Source of the DNA: Chloroflexota bacterium
GTDB taxonomy: Bacteria; Chloroflexota; UBA11872
Length of the DNA stretch: 39,714 nt
Reading direction: 5' to 3'
Assembly (NCBI GenBank): GCA_028874315.1
Contig: JAPPKM010000175.1
Location: 1-39,714, forward strand
The notes below the pieces were generated by a model, which worked only from the letters and a program-made list of their open reading frames with translations, searched no databases and was not told the DNA's origin. A program made the position numbers and the translations under genes. Shown in pieces: positions 30,116 through 39,235 of this stretch. Numbering within the stretch: the first letter of the stretch is position 1; each line of letters begins with the position of its first letter.

Positions 30116-30541
30116 CTAGAGGGGGTTGCGCCAGCGCAGACCGGGGAAGCGGCTGAAGTCAGTGTCATTGGAGTGGACTTCAGCCTGGTATTCGATGGCG
30201 AGGGCGGCGATGTGGGCGTCGGTGGCCAGATTGCCTGCGACGCCGGCGGCCTCCAGGGCTGAGCGCATGAGAGCGGCGTGCTGCCGGCCCGGGTTCAAGG
30301 GCGAGACATGGGGTGCGCGGAACCACTCGTCGACGTAGTCCATCGCTTGCGTGAGCGTTGCAGGGTGCTCACGCAGGCTGGGGTGAGTGAGCAAGCGCAC
30401 GAAGCCGGTTGTGACCACCCACGGGATGCCAATGCGTTCTGTCCCGTTGAGCAGCCTCTCCCACCAACGGCGGGCGGGGTGGTGGAGGGACGTTCCGTCG
30501 TTGTAGGCGTAGAGCAGCAGGTTGACGTCGGGGACAATCAC
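30116..30541 (-). CDS. vapC: PIN-domain ribonuclease toxin (VapC type)
   Basis: VapC toxins cleave RNA through a Mg2+-binding PIN fold. The 141-residue protein shows the acidic residues in the expected order: Asp5 in MIVPDVNLLLYAYN, Glu33 or a nearby acidic residue after the first helix pair, Asp106 in LATDAHIAALAIEY and Asp in SNDTDFSRFPGLRWRNP. The ending is typical of the family. Its ATG at 30541 overlaps the antitoxin stop by 4 bp, the classic vapBC arrangement. The RNA target cannot be predicted. Confidence 0.88.
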   Translation of the reverse strand: MIVPDVNLLLYAYNDGTSLHHPARRWWERLLNGTERIGIPWVVTTGFVRLLTHPSLREHPATLTQAMDYVDEWFRAPHVSPLNPGRQHAALMRSALEAAGVAGNLATDAHIAALAIEYQAEVHSNDTDFSRFPGLRWRNPL

Positions 30542-30816
30542 TCCCGGTGCTCTTCCAGCAACTTTCGATGCTCTTCCAGGAAGTCCTCCACCTCGAGCTG
30601 GTCATTGAGCTGGTTGAGTTTCAGGGGGTCGATCCCAGGCCGGAATCCGCCGCGGAGCGGTCGGACGCGAAAGACTGGCCGATCTTCCGGGGCTTCAGGC
30701 GCCAGGCCGCGGCGCAGGGTGTCGTTGACGACCTGCTTGAATGGGACGTCCAGCAGCTTGGCCTGCTGCTTGAGGGCGTCGGCGAGGTCGTCGTCGAGAG
30801 TGAGGGTGGTTCGCAT
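30538..30816 (-). CDS. vapB: Ribbon-helix-helix antitoxin (VapB type)
   Basis: The antitoxin binds and inhibits the PIN toxin and represses its own operon. The 92-residue protein has an N-terminal ribbon-helix-helix (MRTTLTLDDDLADALKQQAK, then KQVVNDTLRRGL). A Pro/Arg-rich linker follows, and then an acidic helical tail (LEVEDFLEEHRKLLEEHRE) that should contact the toxin. The predicted -10 element ends only 6 bp before ATG 30816. Transcription would begin at the start codon and the mRNA would be leaderless; no ribosome binding site is present. Confidence 0.88.
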   Translation of the reverse strand: MRTTLTLDDDLADALKQQAKLLDVPFKQVVNDTLRRGLAPEAPEDRPVFRVRPLRGGFRPGIDPLKLNQLNDQLEVEDFLEEHRKLLEEHRE

Positions 30817-30909: not shown

Positions 30910-31230
30910 TTACTTCCACTCGTCGTCGGGGGGCCAGATGTTGGTGGCGCCGAGGCCGGCGCCCTGGAGGCCGGAATCTTCGGTCCAGTCGGCAGTGGCG
31001 TCGCGCCATTTGATGAAGTGGGGGGCCTGGGTGTGGGCCTTGAAGGCGTCTTCGTCGACATAGATTTCGTAGAGCCAGATGCGGTTGGGATCGTTGGCGT
31101 CCTGGATGACGTCGAACTGGAGGCAACCCGGCTCGTCGTTCACTGAGCCGCGCGCGTCGCCGATCATCTCTTCGATGAAGCGGTCCTTGTAGCCGTCCTT
31201 GATCTGGATGGGGGCGATGATCACGAACAT
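30910..31230 (-). CDS. ABM-domain (antibiotic biosynthesis monooxygenase-like) protein
   Basis: The 106-residue protein has the dimeric alpha-beta barrel pattern of the ABM/YgiN family: MFVIIAPIQIKDGYKDRFIEEM, NDEPGCLQFDVIQDANDPNRIWLYEIY and DEDAFKAHTQAPHFIKW, each read in sections. Members include quinol monooxygenases and small heme or aromatic oxygenases, but many have no known role. Start ATG 31230 follows AGGAGTCCCGC at good spacing. The upstream continuation of the frame is not protein-like. It stands alone, between the TA pair and the Yip1-like genes. Confidence 0.85.
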   Translation of the reverse strand: MFVIIAPIQIKDGYKDRFIEEMIGDARGSVNDEPGCLQFDVIQDANDPNRIWLYEIYVDEDAFKAHTQAPHFIKWRDATADWTEDSGLQGAGLGATNIWPPDDEWK

Positions 31231-31402
31231 GCGGGACTCCTGTTCACGGGACGCGGCACGGGGCCGCCAGGGAATCGTACAAGCAGTGGTCAGCGAAGAG
31301 GCGACGACGTCGGTGCGTAGCGCGCGGTTCAGGGGACGGGCGGCCACGAGGGCTGCCGCTTCGCAGGCCGGCCTCGGCGGCTTGGCGGGGAACTTGCAGG
31401 TG

Positions 31403-32299
31403 CTAGGTAGCGCCGGCGGCGGCGAACGGATGGAGAATCGATACGGAAAGGTAGTACAGGAGACCGTCGGTCAAGCCAAGGAATCCGAGGTTGAAGTCGA
31501 ATCTGTAGGCAATGTCTTCCGCCGAAAGCGCGGCGGACTTGAAGCCCGGCGGGTAGAGGGCGTAAAGACCCACGGCCTCGCGTCCGGCGACAGCGCTGAT
31601 CAGCACGACGACCGCTCCAAAGAGCGCCGCGATCAATAGACCCGCGGAAAGGAGCGCAAGCAACGTTCGCGCGCTGCTGAGTCGTAACACCTCGCGCATG
31701 GCGAGGAAGGATCCGGCGAGCACCCAGGCGTTGATCACGCCAGTTGACCAGGACCCGGGGAGCTGGACGGAATCACCGGGGACTTCCACGGGGATCAGCG
31801 CGGTGACGCTGGCGAGCACGTTGCTGAGGGGGATCAACACGGGAGCGACGAGGATTGGCGCCTGAGCGAGGGCCAGCGCTCGCGCGATGTTCCGGAACGA
31901 TGGGGGCTGGCCCTCGCGAGGCCTCCAGCGAGTTCCGATCGACCACAACAGAAATGTCCAGGTCAGCCAGGCTGCGAGTTGCGTGATGGCGGGGACCAGG
32001 AACAACACCGGCAGCTGAAGGATCGGGGCCCGAGGGGCCGGATTGTCTGCTGAAGCAGACGGGAAGATGCTGGAGTAGGAAGAGCTGACCTCCAACAGCC
32101 CGGCAAAAAGAGCCGTGATAAGGATGACCTTGAGCGCCTGGCGACCACCTACCCCATGCCTGGCGATATCGCTATACAGGGATCGATCCAGGCGCAAGGC
32201 CCGGCGGATGCGGACATCAATGTCGTTCGCCGGGCTGGACTGCACTTCAGTCGGCCAGTCGGGCGCCTGACGAAGCTGGGACGCTACTACCGCCTGCAT
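31403..32299 (-). CDS. Yip1-like membrane protein, copy 3
   Basis: The 298-residue protein has an N-terminal amphipathic segment VRIRRALRLDRSLYSDIARHG followed by about five or six hydrophobic helices. FRNIARALALAQAPILVAP and LAMREVLRLSSARTLLAL lie between helices. The two preceding genes have the same motifs at the same positions, which marks three tandem paralogues. The layout resembles bacterial Yip1/YIP1-domain (DUF1282-type) integral membrane proteins of unknown function. Start ATG 32299 is 12 bp after the preceding gene, so one operon is likely. Confidence 0.68.
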   Translation of the reverse strand: MQAVVASQLRQAPDWPTEVQSSPANDIDVRIRRALRLDRSLYSDIARHGVGGRQALKVILITALFAGLLEVSSSYSSIFPSASADNPAPRAPILQLPVLFLVPAITQLAAWLTWTFLLWSIGTRWRPREGQPPSFRNIARALALAQAPILVAPVLIPLSNVLASVTALIPVEVPGDSVQLPGSWSTGVINAWVLAGSFLAMREVLRLSSARTLLALLSAGLLIAALFGAVVVLISAVAGREAVGLYALYPPGFKSAALSAEDIAYRFDFNLGFLGLTDGLLYYLSVSILHPFAAAGAT

Positions 32300-32311
32300 T
32301 GATAGTCGGCA

Positions 32312-32950
32312 TCACCATCCCAGTCCGCCCGAGAGGCTCGTCACGTCACTGATTCCGAAGACCGCTAGCAGGCGGAAGCTCCCTACGAGGAGCGCGGCGT
32401 AGGCTGCCGCGCCGAAGAGCAACGTCACGACTGTCCGCTTACCGCTAAGTCCCAGCGCCTCGCGCAGCGCGGTGGAAGTGGCCAGCAGCAGACACATCCT
32501 CGCAATGAACCAGACTCCGCCACGATAGGGCGTGGGGAGCGCTACCAACACACCCAGCAGGTTGGGCGCCTGGGCGAAGGCCAGCGCACGGGCCACGGGC
32601 CAGAAGCCCCTGGGCCTGTTGCCGCCCGTCGCCAGGCGAGCGCCGATCGCCCAGGCCAGGGCGGATCCCCCGATCCAGGCAATGAGCGTCACCAGCGGCT
32701 CAAGGATTATCCCCACCAGGAGTCCAGTGATCGGAGACCCCGCGAGCAGCGATCCCAGGCACGTCGCGATACCGAAACCCAGGGCGGCCGTCAGGACGAC
32801 AGTGATCGCCGCGCGATTGCCGCCGCCCGTGGTGGCAGCTTCGCGATAGGGCGCCGGCGCGAGCAAAGCCGCGTCGCGTAGCTTGAGCAGGAGCGGCCGG
32901 CCCGTATCAGGGCGGTCTCGTTTGGACGCCATATCTACCGGCTGTGCCAT
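32312..32950 (-). CDS. Yip1-like membrane protein, copy 2
   Basis: The 212-residue protein is the shortest of the three paralogues. The N-terminal segment KLRDAALLAPAPYREAAT corresponds to RALRLDxxLYxxIA of its neighbours but is degenerate. The motifs FWPVARALAFAQAPNLLGVL and TALREALGLSGKRTVVTLL are conserved. About five membrane helices are seen. It lacks about 70 residues between the mid helices relative to the others. Its ATG at 32950 shares one base with the stop of copy 1 (TGATG), so it is translationally coupled. Function unknown. Confidence 0.68.
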   Translation of the reverse strand: MAQPVDMASKRDRPDTGRPLLLKLRDAALLAPAPYREAATTGGGNRAAITVVLTAALGFGIATCLGSLLAGSPITGLLVGIILEPLVTLIAWIGGSALAWAIGARLATGGNRPRGFWPVARALAFAQAPNLLGVLVALPTPYRGGVWFIARMCLLLATSTALREALGLSGKRTVVTLLFGAAAYAALLVGSFRLLAVFGISDVTSLSGGLGW

Positions 32951-33819
32951 CAAACGATGACCAGCAGTCGTGCCACTAGGTGAATGAGTGCATCGCTGAG
33001 AAACTGACCGAAATACACGTCGAATCCGAACGTTGCCCAGTGCGGAATTCTGACGATGACGCGTTCGGTGAGGTCGGTGTATGCCGTGAGCGTTGACGCG
33101 GGTTCGAAGGCGTCGGGTATCGCGCCAGCAGCGGCGGCGATTACGCTGGCGATGGTGAGGATCAGGGCCACGAGCACGGCGTGGCCGGTGGCCACCGCGA
33201 CGAGTGCGCCGAAGGCCTGACCGAAACTCAAGCCCAGGGACTCGCGAACGGCCAGCAGTGTGCCGAGAAACACCCAGATCAAGACGAGACCCCACCCGAC
33301 GTAGACAAGGATTCCCAGCCAGGGCATCGCCATAGGGTCACGAAGTACATCAGGGTTCGCGGGGATTGCCGGAAAGGCGAAGGCTGTCGCGACGGTGACA
33401 GGGAGGAGCAAGAGCGCGCCGGGTATTCCCGGACTCTGTGCAAATGCGATGGCGCGGGCCACTTGCCCGAGGCCTGGGAGGTCACGGTCCCGGCCCTTAA
33501 GCCGTCGAGCGACGAGCCACATCCCAGCGGCCCAGACCGGCCAAGCCGCCAGAACTGCCAGGGCGCGAACCACGACGGCCGCGTTTTCGAAGTGGGCAAC
33601 GATCCAGGCGTTGGATTGGATCGTCGTGAAACCCTGCTGTCCGAAGTTCAGCCAGCCGGCGAGGCTGGCGGCAGCCGCCGCATACGCGTAACCAGCAGCC
33701 GCCAGCACGACGACCAGCGCGGCCTGCTCAGTGCTGGCCCCGGGTGCCGCGACCTCACGATAGAGGGTGGCATCAAGCCGCAGGGCACGAACGACTCGGC
33801 TGACGAAGCCGTCGCCCAT
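32950..33819 (-). CDS. Yip1-like membrane protein, copy 1
   Basis: This 289-residue membrane protein is the first of three tandem paralogues. It carries RVVRALRLDATLYREVAAPG at the N-terminus, LGQVARAIAFAQSPGIPGAL in the middle and LAVRESLGLSFGQAFGALV near helix 5, with about six helices. ATG 33819 was taken as the start (MGDGFVSRVV), while TTG 33828 in frame is possible. Upstream lies a degraded guaB-tail fragment. The family is tentatively Yip1-like, and no function can be given. Confidence 0.68.
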   Translation of the reverse strand: MGDGFVSRVVRALRLDATLYREVAAPGASTEQAALVVVLAAAGYAYAAAAASLAGWLNFGQQGFTTIQSNAWIVAHFENAAVVVRALAVLAAWPVWAAGMWLVARRLKGRDRDLPGLGQVARAIAFAQSPGIPGALLLLPVTVATAFAFPAIPANPDVLRDPMAMPWLGILVYVGWGLVLIWVFLGTLLAVRESLGLSFGQAFGALVAVATGHAVLVALILTIASVIAAAAGAIPDAFEPASTLTAYTDLTERVIVRIPHWATFGFDVYFGQFLSDALIHLVARLLVIV

Positions 33820-34258
33820 AGTCGCCAATCCCGTCGCTGGCGGTGTCCGGCGGCAAGTCTGTCAGATCGGGCCGGACGTTGCGCCGCGACCGTGACGACG
33901 GTCGCGCAGGCAATTCAGGCCGGCATCCGCTACCAGGAACTGCCTCTGCGAGGCGCGGGGCTGGTCGCTGGGGATTCCTTGACGAGGACGACGTCGTGGG
34001 GTGGCTTTCGTCGGCGCCACCGTTGGTGACGCAGACGAAGCTGTTCCGCGTCTGAATGGCGTGGATGTCGGGGGCGCCGACGGAACCCATGAATGAGCAG
34101 AGGGCGCCGACAAGTTGGTCGATGAGGCCGGCGGTGGGTTCTCGGCAGGGGGTGGGATTCGACGTTTTCGGCGGAGAGATTGGCGGAGTCCCTGGCTTCG
34201 GGTTGGGTGTCGCACGAACTCTCTCCTCGCCCGCGCACTTCGATCAAGCTCGATGGCG
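33820..34258. other. Spacer between Yip1-like genes and HAD gene, holding a guaB remnant
   Basis: This roughly 440-bp gap has no intact gene. Most of it is the degraded guaB 3'-end copy at about 33965-34211. The 140 bp between that copy and the Yip1-like gene shows nothing recognisable. No clear promoter for the membrane-protein operon was identified. Confidence 0.6.
33965..34211 (-). pseudogene. Degraded copy of the guaB 3' end (copy C)
   Basis: Read on the minus strand, this segment encodes [34 protein letters not shown] and VCVTNGGADESHP, then, after a one-base shift, [10 protein letters not shown]. This is the C-terminus of IMP dehydrogenase as found in guaB at 37712. By hand count 42 of 52 aligned residues match. 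Similarity continues upstream in another frame (SANLSAENVES against [11 protein letters not shown]). At least two frameshifts and the loss of the stop codon show it is not functional. It lies directly downstream of the HAD gene. Confidence 0.85.
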
Positions 34259-34993
34259 TCATGCTCCTTCGCCGCTGGCAATCAGTCCCGGCAGGTGGCT
34301 CAGTGACTCGATTGCCTCTCCCGGCCAGGAGGCTCGCTCCGACTGGAAAGATGCTGCCCGCCACGCGGGCGTTCGGACGAGCATTGCCCGCATCCCAGCC
34401 TGTGCCGCTCCCGTCAATTCGCGATCATCCCCGTCGCCGACGTAGACACAAGATGCGGGTTGCACTCCCAGGCGCGTGCACGCCCGCAGATAGAGATTGG
34501 CATCCGGCTTGACGAGCCTCTCGACGCAGGAGAAGAGGGGCTCGTCGATCAACTCGGCGTATGGCGTCGTCGGCCACAGCTCCGGCACGTCGGGTGCGCA
34601 GTTGCTGACCAACGCTGTCCGCAGGCCCCTTTCTCGCAATCGGCCTAGCGTGGCGACTGCGTCTTCGCGTGGCCGTAGCGCCCTCCGCGAAAACTCCACT
34701 TGCGCCTCTACCGCCCGTCCGACGGCCGCTACGTCCACGCGTGCCCCGATCGCCTCGCAGACTCCCCGCACGACTGCCGCGGTCGTGGCAAACGTCCCAT
34801 CAGACCGCTCTCGCCACTGATCAAACCAGGCACGGCTAAAACCGGCAGGGTCAACCCCCGCGGCCATCCCCATCGACCGCACCGACGCTCGATACGCCTC
34901 ATCGTCAACCGGCGCCGTCAAGGTGTTGAACAGATCGAAGACCACCGCCCTCGCCTGCACGGCGCCCGCCTGCCGCCGACGCCGTTCACTCAT
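34259..34993 (-). CDS. HAD-family hydrolase
   Basis: The 244-residue protein belongs to the haloacid dehalogenase superfamily. Motif I is VVFDLFNTLT (residues 17-26), motif II is TALVSNCAPD, the motif III Lys is in ERLVKPDANLY and motif IV is YVGDGDDRELTGA. The second Asp of the usual DxDxT motif is replaced by Phe. This is the dehalogenase-like or FDLFGTL-type variant and makes ordinary phosphatase chemistry uncertain. Start ATG 34993 follows GAGAGG. Truncated guaB 3' ends lie downstream and, beyond a 424-bp gap, upstream, so the gene may be cargo of an inserted unit. Confidence 0.85.
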   Translation of the reverse strand: MSERRRRQAGAVQARAVVFDLFNTLTAPVDDEAYRASVRSMGMAAGVDPAGFSRAWFDQWRERSDGTFATTAAVVRGVCEAIGARVDVAAVGRAVEAQVEFSRRALRPREDAVATLGRLRERGLRTALVSNCAPDVPELWPTTPYAELIDEPLFSCVERLVKPDANLYLRACTRLGVQPASCVYVGDGDDRELTGAAQAGMRAMLVRTPAWRAASFQSERASWPGEAIESLSHLPGLIASGEGA

Positions 34994-35417
34994 CGACTAA
35001 ACCTCTCGGAAATAAAGAACGCGCGCCGGTTTACGGCGAGCGCGACTACCCACAGAATCGGCGCCAGCCTCAGCTCGCTGGTTCGATACCAGCATCGGTG
35101 TGGTGTCTGCAGTCAATTCGCGATGGCTCCAGCGGATGATGTGACCAGCAGGTCTAAGAAACCAACCACGAAGAGCGCAGGCAAGCTGGAATCGCGATCC
35201 GCGCATTCAACGTGTCCCGGTTCCGAACACTGCTGTTTGCCTTTGTGTCGGTCGACGGCCGGAGGATTCCAGGAGTAGCCCAAGTCTGCGGCGGCACGAA
35301 GGGTCAGTGAGCATCTGGCTTCCCTCTCCCCACGCTCCGGTGTTCCGAGACTTCCTCTTCGTTCCGGTGTTTAGGCCCTTCCGCCAACGGCGCAGGCGTT
35401 TCTGAGTGCGGGTGAGG
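34994..35417. other. Intergenic region between HAD gene and guaB remnant B
   Basis: There is no convincing gene in this 424-bp stretch. A T-arm-like sequence (GCTGG-TTCGATA-CCAGC, about 35080-35096) was seen, but no matching acceptor or D-arm exists on either strand, so it is not a tRNA. No terminator or promoter was identified with confidence. Confidence 0.5.
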
Positions 35418-35688
35418 CTATTGGGTGCGGTGTTGGTCGCTGGGAGATTCACTGACGAGGACGATGTCGTGGGGAGAGTCTTCGTCGGCGCCGGCCTCGG
35501 TGACCTGGACGAAGCGAACCCAGGTTTGCATTTCGTGGATGTCGCAGGCGCCGACGTAGCCAAGCGATCGGCAGAGGCCGCCAATGAGGTGGCCGATGAG
35601 ACCTGCGCTGGGGCCTCGGTTCGGGGTGGGATCCGACGACATCCGCGACGAGCCTGGCGTCGTGGTGGGCCAGGTGCTTGCCGCAGCG
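35418..35688 (-). pseudogene. Partial divergent copy of the guaB 3' end (copy B)
   Basis: On the minus strand the segment reads RGPSAGLIGHLIGGLC, LGYVGACDIHEMQT and AGADEDSPHDIVLV, ending ESPSDQHRTQ and a stop at 35418. This matches the last 66 residues of the guaB product at 47 positions by hand count, many differences being conservative (V/I, M/L, T/S). An ATG at 35642 gives a 74-codon open frame. Upstream similarity continues in another frame (RCGKHLAHHDARLVADVVGS against [20 protein letters not shown]). It contains no catalytic Cys, so it cannot be a working enzyme. It begins about 50 bp after the membrane-protein gene ends. Confidence 0.85.
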
Positions 35689-35740
35689 GTGATGCTCTGA
35701 TTGGCAACGCAAGGCTCGTGCTGTGCGGTGTTTATGCAGA

Positions 35741-37183
35741 TCATTCCTTCGGCCTCGTGCCCCTGACCGCGAGCGTGCCGGAGTGAGTGCTCGGTACCAG
35801 TGCCGTGGCTGTGAGAAGGACCGGGATGACGGTGATTAGCGTGAGGGCAACGAGAACGTCTGCGGCCAACAGCAACCAGCGCCAGTCCGAGGTGCCAAGA
35901 CGCCAGATTGCCAGGAGTTTGCTGCGGGTTGGCTCGGGTGCGCCGTAGGCCACGAATTCGAGGTTCTGATCGGGCCACGCCAGCTCGCCGTTGATCCAGA
36001 GCCGACCGTCCGGGAAGCGGTCGTCCTTGGTGGCGCCAATGCCAAGTTCGGCTCCGGGTGCGACGTCTGCCACGACCTGGAGGGCCAGTTGGCTGCCCTC
36101 GGCCGCGGTGAGAGGTGGCAGAAGCTCAATGTCGCGCCAGCGCGGACAGTCGCTAGCGGGAATCTCGACCGAGCCTCGGGAAAGGATGCGGTCGGGCGCA
36201 TCAAGGGTTGTGAATCGCACGGCGACGGTTCCGGGTCGACCGGTGGAGTCGCAATTGGCCAGGCGGAGCCTGATGCTGTGCACGGGCGTGGCCGGCATGT
36301 GGAGTTCCTGGACCAGGGCTTCTTGCCGCTGAAGACTTACGCCGAAGGCCTGCGCACGCGTGTAGGGAGCAAGGGCCTCCACGAGCGGTGGACGGAATAG
36401 GAAGACAAGTGCCAGGCCGCCCAGGAGGGTCACCACGGCGATCGACGCCGTCAGCGATTGGCTCCAGCGGCGGACAAGCTGGGGAAACGTCGGGGGACGT
36501 CCGACACGCAGAGCGAGGGCGGCGCTCAGCCCAATTAGCAGGGTGCCGCTGAATTCCAGGGTCTCTTCAAGCACGAATTCGATGGCCCGGGCTCGTCCGT
36601 AGAACAGCCAGGGATCAATCGTCTCGTGCAGGAGTGCCAGCACCCAGCAGGCGATCCCGAGCGCCAGCGGCGCCCGGGTCTCCCATGCACGCAGACCTTT
36701 GCGGACGAAAACCCACATGGCCAGCACGAACGCCACGACCAGCGGACTCACGAGAACCGGCCACGGGACGCCCAGGCGCTCCGCCTGTCCGACGACGGAG
36801 ATGGGACCGTCCTTCTTGAATTCGGCCAGCTCTTCAATCGTCAAGGCCGCCGTGGTTAGCGCCATCAGAGCCCAACCGCCGACAGCGATCCGGCCGGCCG
36901 ACCGACGGTGGCCGACAACGGCCGTTGCGACCACGAGGAGCGTTACGCATGCCAGGGTGCCGGCGGAAACTGAATTGGCGATAGTCCCCTCATTGCTGGC
37001 GTTCAACCGGCCCAGAGTGGTGTTCCAGGGCGGCAGCAACGCAGGAAACGCCAGGCTGAACAGATGCGGAAGGACGTACGCACCCCACCAGAAGGCCACG
37101 ACGCTCAACAGCAGGATTCGTCCAAACCCGGTCGCCAGCCGCCAAGCCGATGCCGGCACGACAAGAGTGCTTGGTTGGTTCAT
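35741..37183 (-). CDS. Polytopic membrane protein with C-terminal soluble domain, unknown function
   Basis: The 480-residue protein was not recognised. About seven helices (near 22-44, 72-92, 98-118, 142-161, 171-188, 205-226, 243-264) are followed by an extracytoplasmic beta-rich domain of about 160 residues and a last helix near 435-465. Acidic and His residues lie in or next to helices (IEELAEF near 116-122, HETIDPW near 186-192, LEETLEF near 205-211), which suggests a buried polar or metal site. The soluble part has PVHSIRLRLANCDSTGRPG and EIPASDCPRWRDIEL, with two possible paired Cys. ATG 37183 lacks a clear ribosome binding site. It is flanked by guaB and by a guaB 3'-end remnant. Confidence 0.7.
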   Translation of the reverse strand: MNQPSTLVVPASAWRLATGFGRILLLSVVAFWWGAYVLPHLFSLAFPALLPPWNTTLGRLNASNEGTIANSVSAGTLACVTLLVVATAVVGHRRSAGRIAVGGWALMALTTAALTIEELAEFKKDGPISVVGQAERLGVPWPVLVSPLVVAFVLAMWVFVRKGLRAWETRAPLALGIACWVLALLHETIDPWLFYGRARAIEFVLEETLEFSGTLLIGLSAALALRVGRPPTFPQLVRRWSQSLTASIAVVTLLGGLALVFLFRPPLVEALAPYTRAQAFGVSLQRQEALVQELHMPATPVHSIRLRLANCDSTGRPGTVAVRFTTLDAPDRILSRGSVEIPASDCPRWRDIELLPPLTAAEGSQLALQVVADVAPGAELGIGATKDDRFPDGRLWINGELAWPDQNLEFVAYGAPEPTRSKLLAIWRLGTSDWRWLLLAADVLVALTLITVIPVLLTATALVPSTHSGTLAVRGTRPKE

Positions 37184-37711
37184 TTCAGGACGTACTGCTT
37201 CGCCGGGTATCGCGCATTCTGGGGACGCTCCTTCACTTGCCTTCCAACGTGCGGAGATTGGCAGGTTGCAACAGCTCCCTGGTGCCGGCCGACTGTGGCG
37301 CTGTACGCGGGGAAAGCCAGTTGGGCTGAGGAGACTGTGGGTTCGGGAGGCCTTGCTGGGCCACGGATTGTCTTCGAATCATGCTGGGCGCCGGCTACTC
37401 CAGGATCCGACGGACTCTCTCGTGAACGTGTGGAGCCTTTCGTATCGCCGCGAGTTGGCCAAATGACATTCGATGTCCAATCGTCTCGCGGGATGGTGCC
37501 TTGCCACGGGTTGCCTCTGTGTGACCAGGCGGGGGCTACGGGACCAACGCGGAATAGGCGACGAGATCGAGAGAGGCGAAGCGAGAGGCGGGCGGCTTCC
37601 GAGGCATTGGGTTGGCGGGTGAACGATGTCGGGGCTATTCGAACTCGACGCCAAGCCTAGTCAATCCCGGAGTTGCCGGGACCCGGCTGTGGACGCTGGA
37701 GTGACCGGGGG
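37184..37711. other. Intergenic region downstream of guaB
   Basis: This 528-bp stretch between the guaB stop and the membrane-protein gene holds no convincing coding frame. A short hairpin TCCCGG-AGTTG-CCGGGA (37665-37681) lies about 30 bp after the guaB stop but lacks a U-run, so termination there is only possible. Nothing else was recognised. Confidence 0.5.
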
Positions 37712-39235
37712 TTAGCGGGTGCGGTGTTGGTAGTTGGGGGATTCCTTGACGAGGACGACGTCGTGGGGGTGGCTTTCGTCGGCGCCGGCGTTGGTGACGC
37801 GGACGAAGCGGGCGCGGGTTTGCATGGCGTGGATGTCGGGGGCGCCGACGTAGCCCATGGATGAGCAGAGGCCGCCTACCAACTGGTCGATGAGGCCGGC
37901 GGTGGGGCCGCGGTAGGGGGTCTGGGCTTCGACGCCTTCGGCGACGAGCTTGGCGGCGTCTTCGACTTCGTGCTGGCCGTAGCGGTCGCGGGTGGCGAGG
38001 CGGCGGTCGACCATGGCGCCGATTGAGCCCATGCCGCGGTATTCCTTGAAGCGTTCGCCCTGGCGGTAGACGATTTCGCCGGGGCTGGCGTCGGTGCCGG
38101 CCAACAGGTTGCCGATCATGACGGCGGAGGAGCCGGCGGCAATGGCCTTGGCTACGTCGCCGGAGTAACGGATGCCGCCGTCGGCGACGAGCTGGACGCC
38201 ATGCTCGGCGCAGGGGTCGGCGCAATCGAGGATGGCGGTGAGCTGGGGTACGCCGACGCCGGCGACGACGCGGGTGGTGCAGATGGCCGCGGGACCGACG
38301 CCGACTTTGATGGCGTCCGCGCCGGCCTGGATGAGGTCGCTGGCGCCGGCGGCGGTGACGACGTTGCCGGCGATGACTTCGATATCAAGGCTGTCCTTGA
38401 CGCGGCTGACCATGTCCAGGACGGCGGAGTGGTGGCCGTGGGCGGAGTCGACGACGAGGGCGTCGACTCCGGCGTCGGTGAGTTCACGGGCGCGGTCGAA
38501 GGCTTCCTCCTGGACACCGACGGCGGCGGCTACCACGAGACGGCCTTTGTCGTCGTAAACGGCGTTGGGGAATTGTTGTCGCTTGGCGATGTCCTTGACG
38601 GTGATGAGGCCGCGGAGGATTCCATCGGAATCAACGACGGGCAGTTTTTCGATGCGGTGTTCGTGGAGGCGGTGCTGGGCTTGTTCCAGGGTGGTGCCGA
38701 CGGGGGCGGTGACGAGGTTCCGGCTGGTCATCAGGTCGGCGACGGTATGCGCCTGGTCGTGGGTGAAGCGCATGTCGCGGTTGGTGAGGATGCCGACCAG
38801 GCGCCCTTCCTCGTCGGTGATGGGCACGCCGGAGATTCGGTAGCGGGCCATCACGGCATTGGCGTCGGCCAGCGTGGCCGTGGGGGGCAACGTGACCGGG
38901 TCGACGATCATTCCGGACTGGGAGCGCTTGACTTTGTCAATCTCGCCGACCTGGTCGTCGATCGTGAGGTTGCGGTGAATAACGCCGATGCCGCCGGCAC
39001 GAGCCATGGCGACGGCCATGGTGGCCTCGGTGACGGTGTCCATGGCGGAGGACACGAGGGGCACGTTAAGGGTGAGGTTGGGCGTGATGCGGGTGCGGGT
39101 GTCGACCTGGGTGGGCAGGACGTCGGAGCGGCCGGGGACGAGGAGCACGTCGTCGTAGGTGAGGCCTTCGACGATGCTGCGGGTGGAGGTGACGGACTGC
39201 TCTTCGATGCGAACCGGGTTTGGATCAAGCGACAC
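37712..39235 (-). CDS. guaB: IMP dehydrogenase
   Basis: GuaB oxidises IMP to XMP with NAD+, the committed step of GMP synthesis. The 507-residue protein has an (alpha/beta)8 barrel interrupted by tandem CBS domains (about 105-220). The catalytic loop is [12 protein letters not shown] with Cys319, the phosphate-binding part is [10 protein letters not shown], and the mobile-flap Arg418-Tyr419 is in RDRYGQ. The end reads [18 protein letters not shown] 39235 follows GGGAGGCGC at good spacing and fits homologues. The frame is open to 39373, but the extra part spans a terminator hairpin and is not protein-like. Two degraded copies of its 3' end lie downstream. Confidence 0.95.

Follow-up and report, generated by a model that had tools for sequence, protein, structure and literature searches.

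The window analysed in this study is the whole 39,714-nt stretch of contig JAPPKM010000175.1 of a Chloroflexota bacterium (assembly GCA_028874315.1), a contig of a 3.34-Mb metagenome-assembled genome (MAG) that comprises 206 contigs and is 86.6% complete. The close named relatives of this genome are Chloroflexota MAGs, some of whose names (RHO, COS) may point to sponge hosts. The analysis concerns the DNA downstream of guaB, the gene for IMP dehydrogenase, where the 3′ end of this gene recurs twice as truncated "tails", each placed behind a different gene. Counted from guaB, the order on the minus strand is guaB, X, tail B, HAD, tail C, Yip block and ABM. The features are as follows (aa, amino acids; ORF, open reading frame):

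37712..39235, minus strand: guaB, IMP dehydrogenase of 507 aa (PF00478, E 9.9e-149, plus CBS domains), the anchor gene
within 37712..39235, minus strand: the last ~280 bp of guaB, parent sequence of the putatively displaced tails
35741..37183, minus strand: cargo 1 ("X"), a 480-aa ORF without a Pfam match, from a family with multiple copies in these genomes ("membrane" is a label of the earlier note on this DNA)
35419..35711, minus strand: putatively displaced guaB tail B (blastn 78.5% over 270 columns, E 1.5e-62; profile search E 1.5e-72; flat codon-position pattern)
34259..34993, minus strand: cargo 2, a HAD-family hydrolase of 244 aa (PF00702, E 3.5e-18)
33952..34213, minus strand: displaced guaB tail C, at the old gene-end place before Yip-type genes (blastn 83.0% over 259 columns, E 2e-73; profile search E 1.2e-68; right-flank test)
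33612..33949, minus strand: flank of tail C; its counterpart in two congeners lies ~72 bp past the stop of intact guaB (87.0% in L036, 84.9% in L037)
31403..33828, minus strand: block of Yip-type ORFs (one of 292 aa, one of 298 aa and a third between them; PF04893, E 3.9e-07, in the 298-aa ORF only)
30910..31347, minus strand: ABM-family gene (PF03992, E 2.7e-20), which bounds the variable interval on its far side in the g1 group of relatives

The earlier note, made from the letters of the window, had reported that the guaB end recurs twice on the minus strand, that each cargo gene ends about 50 bp before a tail and that one cargo gene encodes a HAD hydrolase. All three statements were confirmed, the first by nucleotide alignment and the last by the Pfam match listed above. 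The two tails also resemble one another (74.2% over 236 columns, E 1e-38, blastn). A search of the whole genome with the guaB tail returned matches at 37712-38034, 35423-35690 and 33952-34206, all on this contig and on the minus strand, and no further copy beyond these three places; the profile search widened B and C to the limits given above. The end of the X ORF (35741) lies 29-50 bp from tail B and that of the HAD ORF (34259) 45-52 bp from tail C, the ranges reflecting the two sets of tail edges (profile and blastn). Comparison of the window with itself gave no second pair of a gene end and a tail of this kind, and a DNA pattern tried in the window had no match.

Both tails appear to have accumulated changes as non-coding DNA. 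Bases of B or C that are absent from all 11 guaB genes compared were scored as private; over the last ~198 columns, they are distributed at third, second and first codon positions as 12/11/10 in B and 8/9/6 in C, in contrast to the variation among the 11 intact genes (24/1/4). This even distribution, so unlike that of intact guaB, indicates decay without coding constraint. It also bears on the idea that the tail is kept as a functional element (a terminator, a regulatory or an attachment sequence) needed by the cargo, which would explain why each tail lies close behind a cargo gene. Given the even changes, the small deletions and the unequal lengths of the tails, as well as the presence of other cargo at the same place without tails, we regard this idea as very improbable indeed.

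If a newcomer displaces the old gene end, the old neighbour should be found directly after the displaced tail (the DISPLACEMENT test). The 338 bp that follow tail C match positions r73-410 of locus L036 (87.0%) and r74-411 of L037 (84.9%), r being counted from the intact guaB stop. Tail C thus occupies the place of the old gene end, since its flank is the DNA that lies ~72 bp past intact guaB in these two loci. The tail itself has neither the stop codon nor the ~70 bp that part guaB from this flank in L036 and L037.

The guaB region was compared in 19 genomes of the family, which include groups g1 and g2; an ABM gene lies downstream of guaB in 11 g1 genomes, and extra guaB tails were counted if longer than 100 bp. 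ORF calls in the relatives are rough, as a base-position model trained on guaB proved too strict for other genes and was replaced by a GC3-GC2 rule (G+C content at third and second codon positions). Loci L038, L039, L037, L042 and L045 belong to genomes G001, G007, G006, G002 and G004, respectively. Extra tails were detected in three of the 19 genomes: that of the window, G001 and G007. The latter two carry one tail of 126-129 bp each, between X and the Yip block, and since L038 and L039 share 97% identity across the 10.3 kb that were compared and have the tail at the same place, it was taken as one inherited event. All 64 of the more distant guaB loci inspected have a single guaB C-terminus.

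The earlier note had proposed that related genomes be searched for variable cargo and for an uninterrupted locus. In the interval between guaB and ABM of the 11 g1 genomes, both were found: three genomes (L033, L040, L041) have an empty site, in which ABM starts within ~80 bp of the guaB stop, and eight carry cargo. X adjoins guaB in five loci (window, L034, L035, L038, L039), the Yip block is present in five (window, L036, L037, L038, L039) and HAD only in the window. Homologues of X occur in 18 of the 19 family genomes. For HAD, the window copy is the only match on a guaB contig that adjoins guaB, and close homologues exist elsewhere in the family. guaB is followed by an ORF of 666-673 aa in one g1 locus (L043) and four g2 loci (L044, L046, L047, L048), its counterpart in L041 being hydantoinase-like; different genes lie downstream of guaB in L042.

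The interval also holds defence cargo. In L037 (4958-10014), a type II CRISPR locus is placed between the Yip block and ABM, with cas1, cas2, 17 copies of a ~36-nt repeat and a cas9-like ORF of 869 aa that seemingly lacks its N-terminal part. In L045 (13173-17137, minus strand), a 908-aa Ppl-like defence protein (PADLOC, 4.8e-114) and an AlbA-domain protein are encoded between guaB and ABM. Near the ABM gene of the window (30116-30816) there is a PIN-like ORF of 141 aa with a 92-aa neighbour, by appearance a candidate toxin-antitoxin pair. Upstream of guaB, two tRNA-His genes form a direct repeat ~1.7-1.8 kb apart (L038, 7483-7560 and 9286-9361; L041, 7660-7738 and 9317-9394), which was also seen in L036, L039 and L045.

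The guaB gene itself is a mosaic. Between about -353 and -39 (37751-38065, ~315 bp) the window and L035 have no mismatches, compared with 92.5% identity in the gene body, and this stretch is probably a recent exchange tract. As such tracts are present in other parts of guaB too, homologous exchange within this gene is likely.

A second gene with displaced ends encodes a zinc-type dehydrogenase (ADH; identified by Pfam). It was found through local direct repeats in samples of the relatives, and its coordinates are given with ADH on the plus strand, some of the loci being reversed. ADH is present in nine of the 13 genomes of the genus, and seven of these nine carry displaced tails, 11 in total (three each in G011 and G012, one each in G005, G006, G007, G010 and G001); none was found in G009 and G004. 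Many of the ORFs between the tails are of the leucine-rich repeat (LRR) type and lie on the opposite strand; two in G011 and one in G007 were confirmed by Pfam, and the remaining ones were judged from their sequence ends. In G007, an AAA ATPase of 397 aa is located between ADH and its tail.

The junctions at ADH are more informative than those at guaB. In G001, an LRR-type ORF and a tail lie between ADH and the 397-aa ORF that directly adjoins ADH in G004. The 300 bp past this tail and those past the intact ADH of G007 share 98% identity, whereas the DNA after G001's own intact ADH is different (47 mismatches in 76 sites). In G012, a displaced tail is followed by the DNA that comes after intact ADH in G011 (86%, 299 bp), and the last tail of this genome adjoins DNA that follows intact ADH in G004, G005, G007 and G010 (83-85%, 77-78 bp). 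A 2.17-kb block made up of an ADH end, an LRR gene and a tail is the first in G011 and the last in G012 (88.2% identity). One of the G011 tails is nearly identical to the ADH end of the same genome (one difference in 184 sites past q845), which would reflect a recent event or conversion. Both loci (L236 in G011, L237 in G012) show arrays of LRR-type genes facing displaced ADH tails, with a different order of blocks.

Displaced ends were also observed at single genes. The 5′ part of dprA has a second copy in G010, 2.35 kb upstream of the gene and separated from it by a 455-aa ORF. Ahead of this displaced start lies the same upstream DNA as ahead of intact dprA in G007 (87.5%, 886 columns); as at tail C and several ADH tails, a displaced end lies here beside DNA that adjoins the intact gene in relatives. 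Of 11 genomes in which dprA gave a match, weak in some of them, one has an extra copy. The G007 gene matches PF02481; dprA is not known to be specific to competence. Also in G010, the last 74 bp of a glycosyltransferase gene recur 2.1 kb downstream, past a 570-aa ORF whose GC3 is below that of the neighbouring genes (extra copy in one of 11 genomes with any match). In G013 (g2), the end of a MacB-like permease gene recurs past an LRR/PD40 gene; a further 188-bp match to this end was noted in G016, on a different contig. A special standing of guaB as an anchor, as suggested at first, is not supported, since the ends of other genes are displaced too, and one of them is a 5′ end.

Gene-end repeat pairs were also sought by automated scans, which listed 10 in 1.2 Mb from three g1 genomes, two in 0.4 Mb of g2 and five in 0.97 Mb from 64 loci of other taxa. 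When limited to two-copy sets without an ORF over the other copy, the counts were 5, 0 and 3, and in a stricter version, which missed the dprA and MacB-like pairs, 4, 0 and 5. Of the 36 repeat pairs listed in four 400-kb samples, 15 were inspected by gene context; the others include members of dispersed repeats. Two further repeats were noted: one of 103 bp (90%) upstream of two neighbouring ORFs with LRR-like ends (L153, 3056-3158 and 5501-5603), and two copies of a short gene end, both with a stop codon, 9.2 kb apart (L149, 1065-1165 and 10285-10385).

On balance, we consider it probable that the tails are old guaB ends displaced by additive, homology-anchored insertion through host recombination, either homology-facilitated illegitimate recombination (HFIR) or a single crossover of circularised DNA. 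Incoming DNA would carry a guaB 3′ end together with a cargo gene and would recombine homologously within guaB. By HFIR, its other side would be joined illegitimately to the recipient guaB a few hundred bases before the stop; alternatively, a circularised piece would enter by a single crossover. In the product, guaB would be whole and have a fresh end, with the cargo behind it and the truncated old end, now decaying, further down. The lengths of the tails would vary by event, which matches their spread at both genes (guaB, 126-129 versus about 260-290 bp; ADH, 104 to about 300 bp). Once formed, units of tail, cargo and tail could be spread and reshuffled by ordinary homologous recombination. 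The right flank of tail C, the empty sites in g1 and the better junctions at ADH all support the original proposal of the earlier note that insertions push the old gene end downstream. We infer from these patterns the recombination route, that no recombinase took part in the original events, in what order the events in the window occurred and that tail B has a like origin; either of the two routes may have acted, and RecA may have been needed.

A number of observations weigh against this explanation, beginning with the window itself. No counterpart of the stretch between tail B and HAD was seen next to guaB at any other locus compared; tail B therefore has no flank proof of its own. Tail B is also more diverged from guaB than tail C, although it is nearer to guaB and was expected to be younger; of the serial stacking first proposed, displacement by insertion is retained and a simple age order is not. 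Moreover, B and C share a frame-breaking 2-nt deletion and five derived bases (~2.4 expected by chance). For this reason one of them may be a copy of the other, perhaps through duplication of a single dead tail around HAD, and their independence is not supported. A common dead ancestor is suggested by these shared changes; the IQ-TREE analysis, in which the best tree with B and C together is 0.99 log units lower (p-AU, approximately unbiased test, 0.154), decides neither way.

The same shared changes would be expected from internal rearrangement, i.e. tandem duplication of the tail and a downstream gene followed by gene replacement or decay, without incoming DNA, and the array-like repetition of tail and LRR blocks at ADH has a similar appearance. 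The genes between the window tails are nevertheless unlike (in the Pfam scan, X, the Yip block and HAD had no family in common), an LRR-type gene and a tail are present in G001 at a place where G004 lacks both, and there are empty sites at guaB. We therefore consider such a rearrangement quite improbable as the source of the tails.

Further points against displacement by recombination come from the relatives. Five of the eight g1 genomes with cargo (L034, L035, L036, L037, L045) have no detectable guaB tail, and two of these (L034, L035) carry X itself, so other routes must act too. In a tail-swap test, the displaced tails of L038 and L039 were no closer to the sister genomes than the present guaB ends are. 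At ADH, comparison of the displaced tail of G001 with the ADH end of G007 shows 25 differences in 296 sites, and the agreement begins only past the stop, which places the join near the stop codon; the exchange involved more than an end, since there are 70 differences in 720 sites between the two ADH bodies. Eight of the 11 ADH tails have homologous upstream DNA and hence do not represent independent events, the unit having apparently spread after one origin. Finally, the crude automated scans described above gave no excess of gene-end repeat pairs in the genus over unrelated taxa; what we claim is therefore recurrence at several genes, not a speciality of this genus.

The common upstream DNA, shared by descent, and the start of several ADH tails near q733 also fit decayed site-specific elements, in which integrases acting at the 3′ end of guaB (and ADH) were later lost, leaving tandem remnants like cis-mobilizable elements (CIMEs), with the tails as attR sites and the present gene ends as replacements. 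Integrases do use gene ends, with identity blocks of up to ~250 bp, and a prophage has been named for its guaB target (PMC10111431); CIMEs without an integrase are likewise known to accumulate in tandem at a gene end (PMC5704250). The left ends of the tails differ within one gene, however (-128 versus about -280 at guaB, q733 versus q926 at ADH), although different integrases could use different cores. The displaced 5′ end of dprA is hard to square with integrases targeting 3′ ends.

Searches for recombinases also speak against such elements. As reported at the outset by the earlier note, there is no integrase in the window: neither PF00589 nor PF00239 had a match on its contig. Tyrosine integrases (PF00589) are present in all 19 family genomes, yet none lies on the guaB contig in 16 of them, those of G002, G013 and G018 are more than 200 kb from guaB, and none is listed on the nine ADH contigs. 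The serine recombinase (PF00239) nearest to guaB is ~72 kb away (G013). No phage or conjugation gene was found among the insert proteins scanned, which represent part of the insert ORFs. Integrases linked to guaB tails, for which the earlier note had proposed a search, were thus not found near guaB in any of the 19 genomes; because some of the contigs that carry guaB span no more than 13.8-16.6 kb (G006, G008 and G009), a more distant recombinase could be missed, which is a further reservation about the recombination route. Decayed site-specific elements accordingly appear rather unlikely, and recombination with a gene end as anchor, mentioned early on as an option, fits better. A phage origin of the tails was rejected: tblastn of the guaB C-terminus against a phage collection gave 16 records with 48-57% identity (12 unannotated, four annotated as guaB or IMP dehydrogenase), none with a link to the genus.

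Homology-anchored insertion could be taken one step further, in that the displaced end may, besides being a scar, provide the homology for a cassette that has no integrase. Units made up of the tail of a core gene and cargo would then circulate among related genomes, entering and leaving through RecA-dependent recombination in the tail and building integron-like arrays behind a housekeeping gene. The 2.17-kb ADH block, first in one genome and last in another, is compatible with such mobility, and we put this forward as a tentative possibility, with considerable doubt.

Several known systems resemble the arrangement described here. In the tandem accretion of CIMEs, integrative and conjugative elements and integrative and mobilizable elements at gene 3′ ends (PMC5704250), growth depends on att sites and an incoming integrase-bearing element, whereas no recombinase was found at guaB and no related integrase-bearing element was present there in the 19 genomes; the 3′ ends of guaA are named in the same source as targets of mobilizable elements. 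The deletion-coupled insertions of Haloquadratum (PMC3119063) share with our loci the precise placement of foreign DNA in the chromosome by a mechanism given as unknown. In the cases described, resident DNA is lost simultaneously, and no displaced gene ends were noted there.

For hotspots without mobile-element genes, double recombination in the core genes that flank them has been given as part of the explanation (PMC5635113), and here too a core gene with recombination stands beside a variable interval that has no integrase. Double crossover, as modelled there, would by itself leave no duplicated gene end. A displaced gene end would therefore be a readable scar of an additive route, distinct from double recombination, that marks the insertion, the old neighbour and, through its decay, a rough age. 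If this is true, a systematic search for such scars could measure the entry of foreign DNA without integrases, which is now hard to test.

In the effector-immunity arrays of type VI secretion systems and the orphaned 3′ regions of Rhs genes, sequential displacement has been proposed, with homologous and illegitimate recombination both discussed (PMC5361080). As at guaB, a newcomer shifts the old 3′ end downstream and the arrays grow. In those arrays, effector ends are displaced and immunity genes kept, whereas here the end of a housekeeping gene decays and the cargo is unrelated; we found no effector or toxin anchor with immunity cargo, the anchors being guaB and a zinc-type dehydrogenase and the cargo X, HAD and LRR proteins. 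Among the matches listed in our literature search, in which subscription papers were mostly outside the scope, there was no report of stacked displaced ends of housekeeping genes without an integrase.

The closest parallel is offered by HFIR, proposed for variable segments in Escherichia coli (PMC2884548), and by laboratory single crossovers. Circular DNA with part of the lacZ end produced duplications of 109-950 bp in 14 sequenced clones, the foreign DNA lying between the copies (PMC3240628), and HFIR of linear DNA gives a similar product if the second join falls before the end of the gene. As expected for additive homologous integration, the anchor gene is partly duplicated on either side of foreign DNA at the guaB tails, the ADH tails and the 5′ end of dprA, and in both settings there would be one homologous join next to a resident gene. 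The laboratory events were obtained at lacZ (PMC3240628), whereas those described here are natural, sometimes stacked, located at the ends of core genes and recognised from sequence alone.

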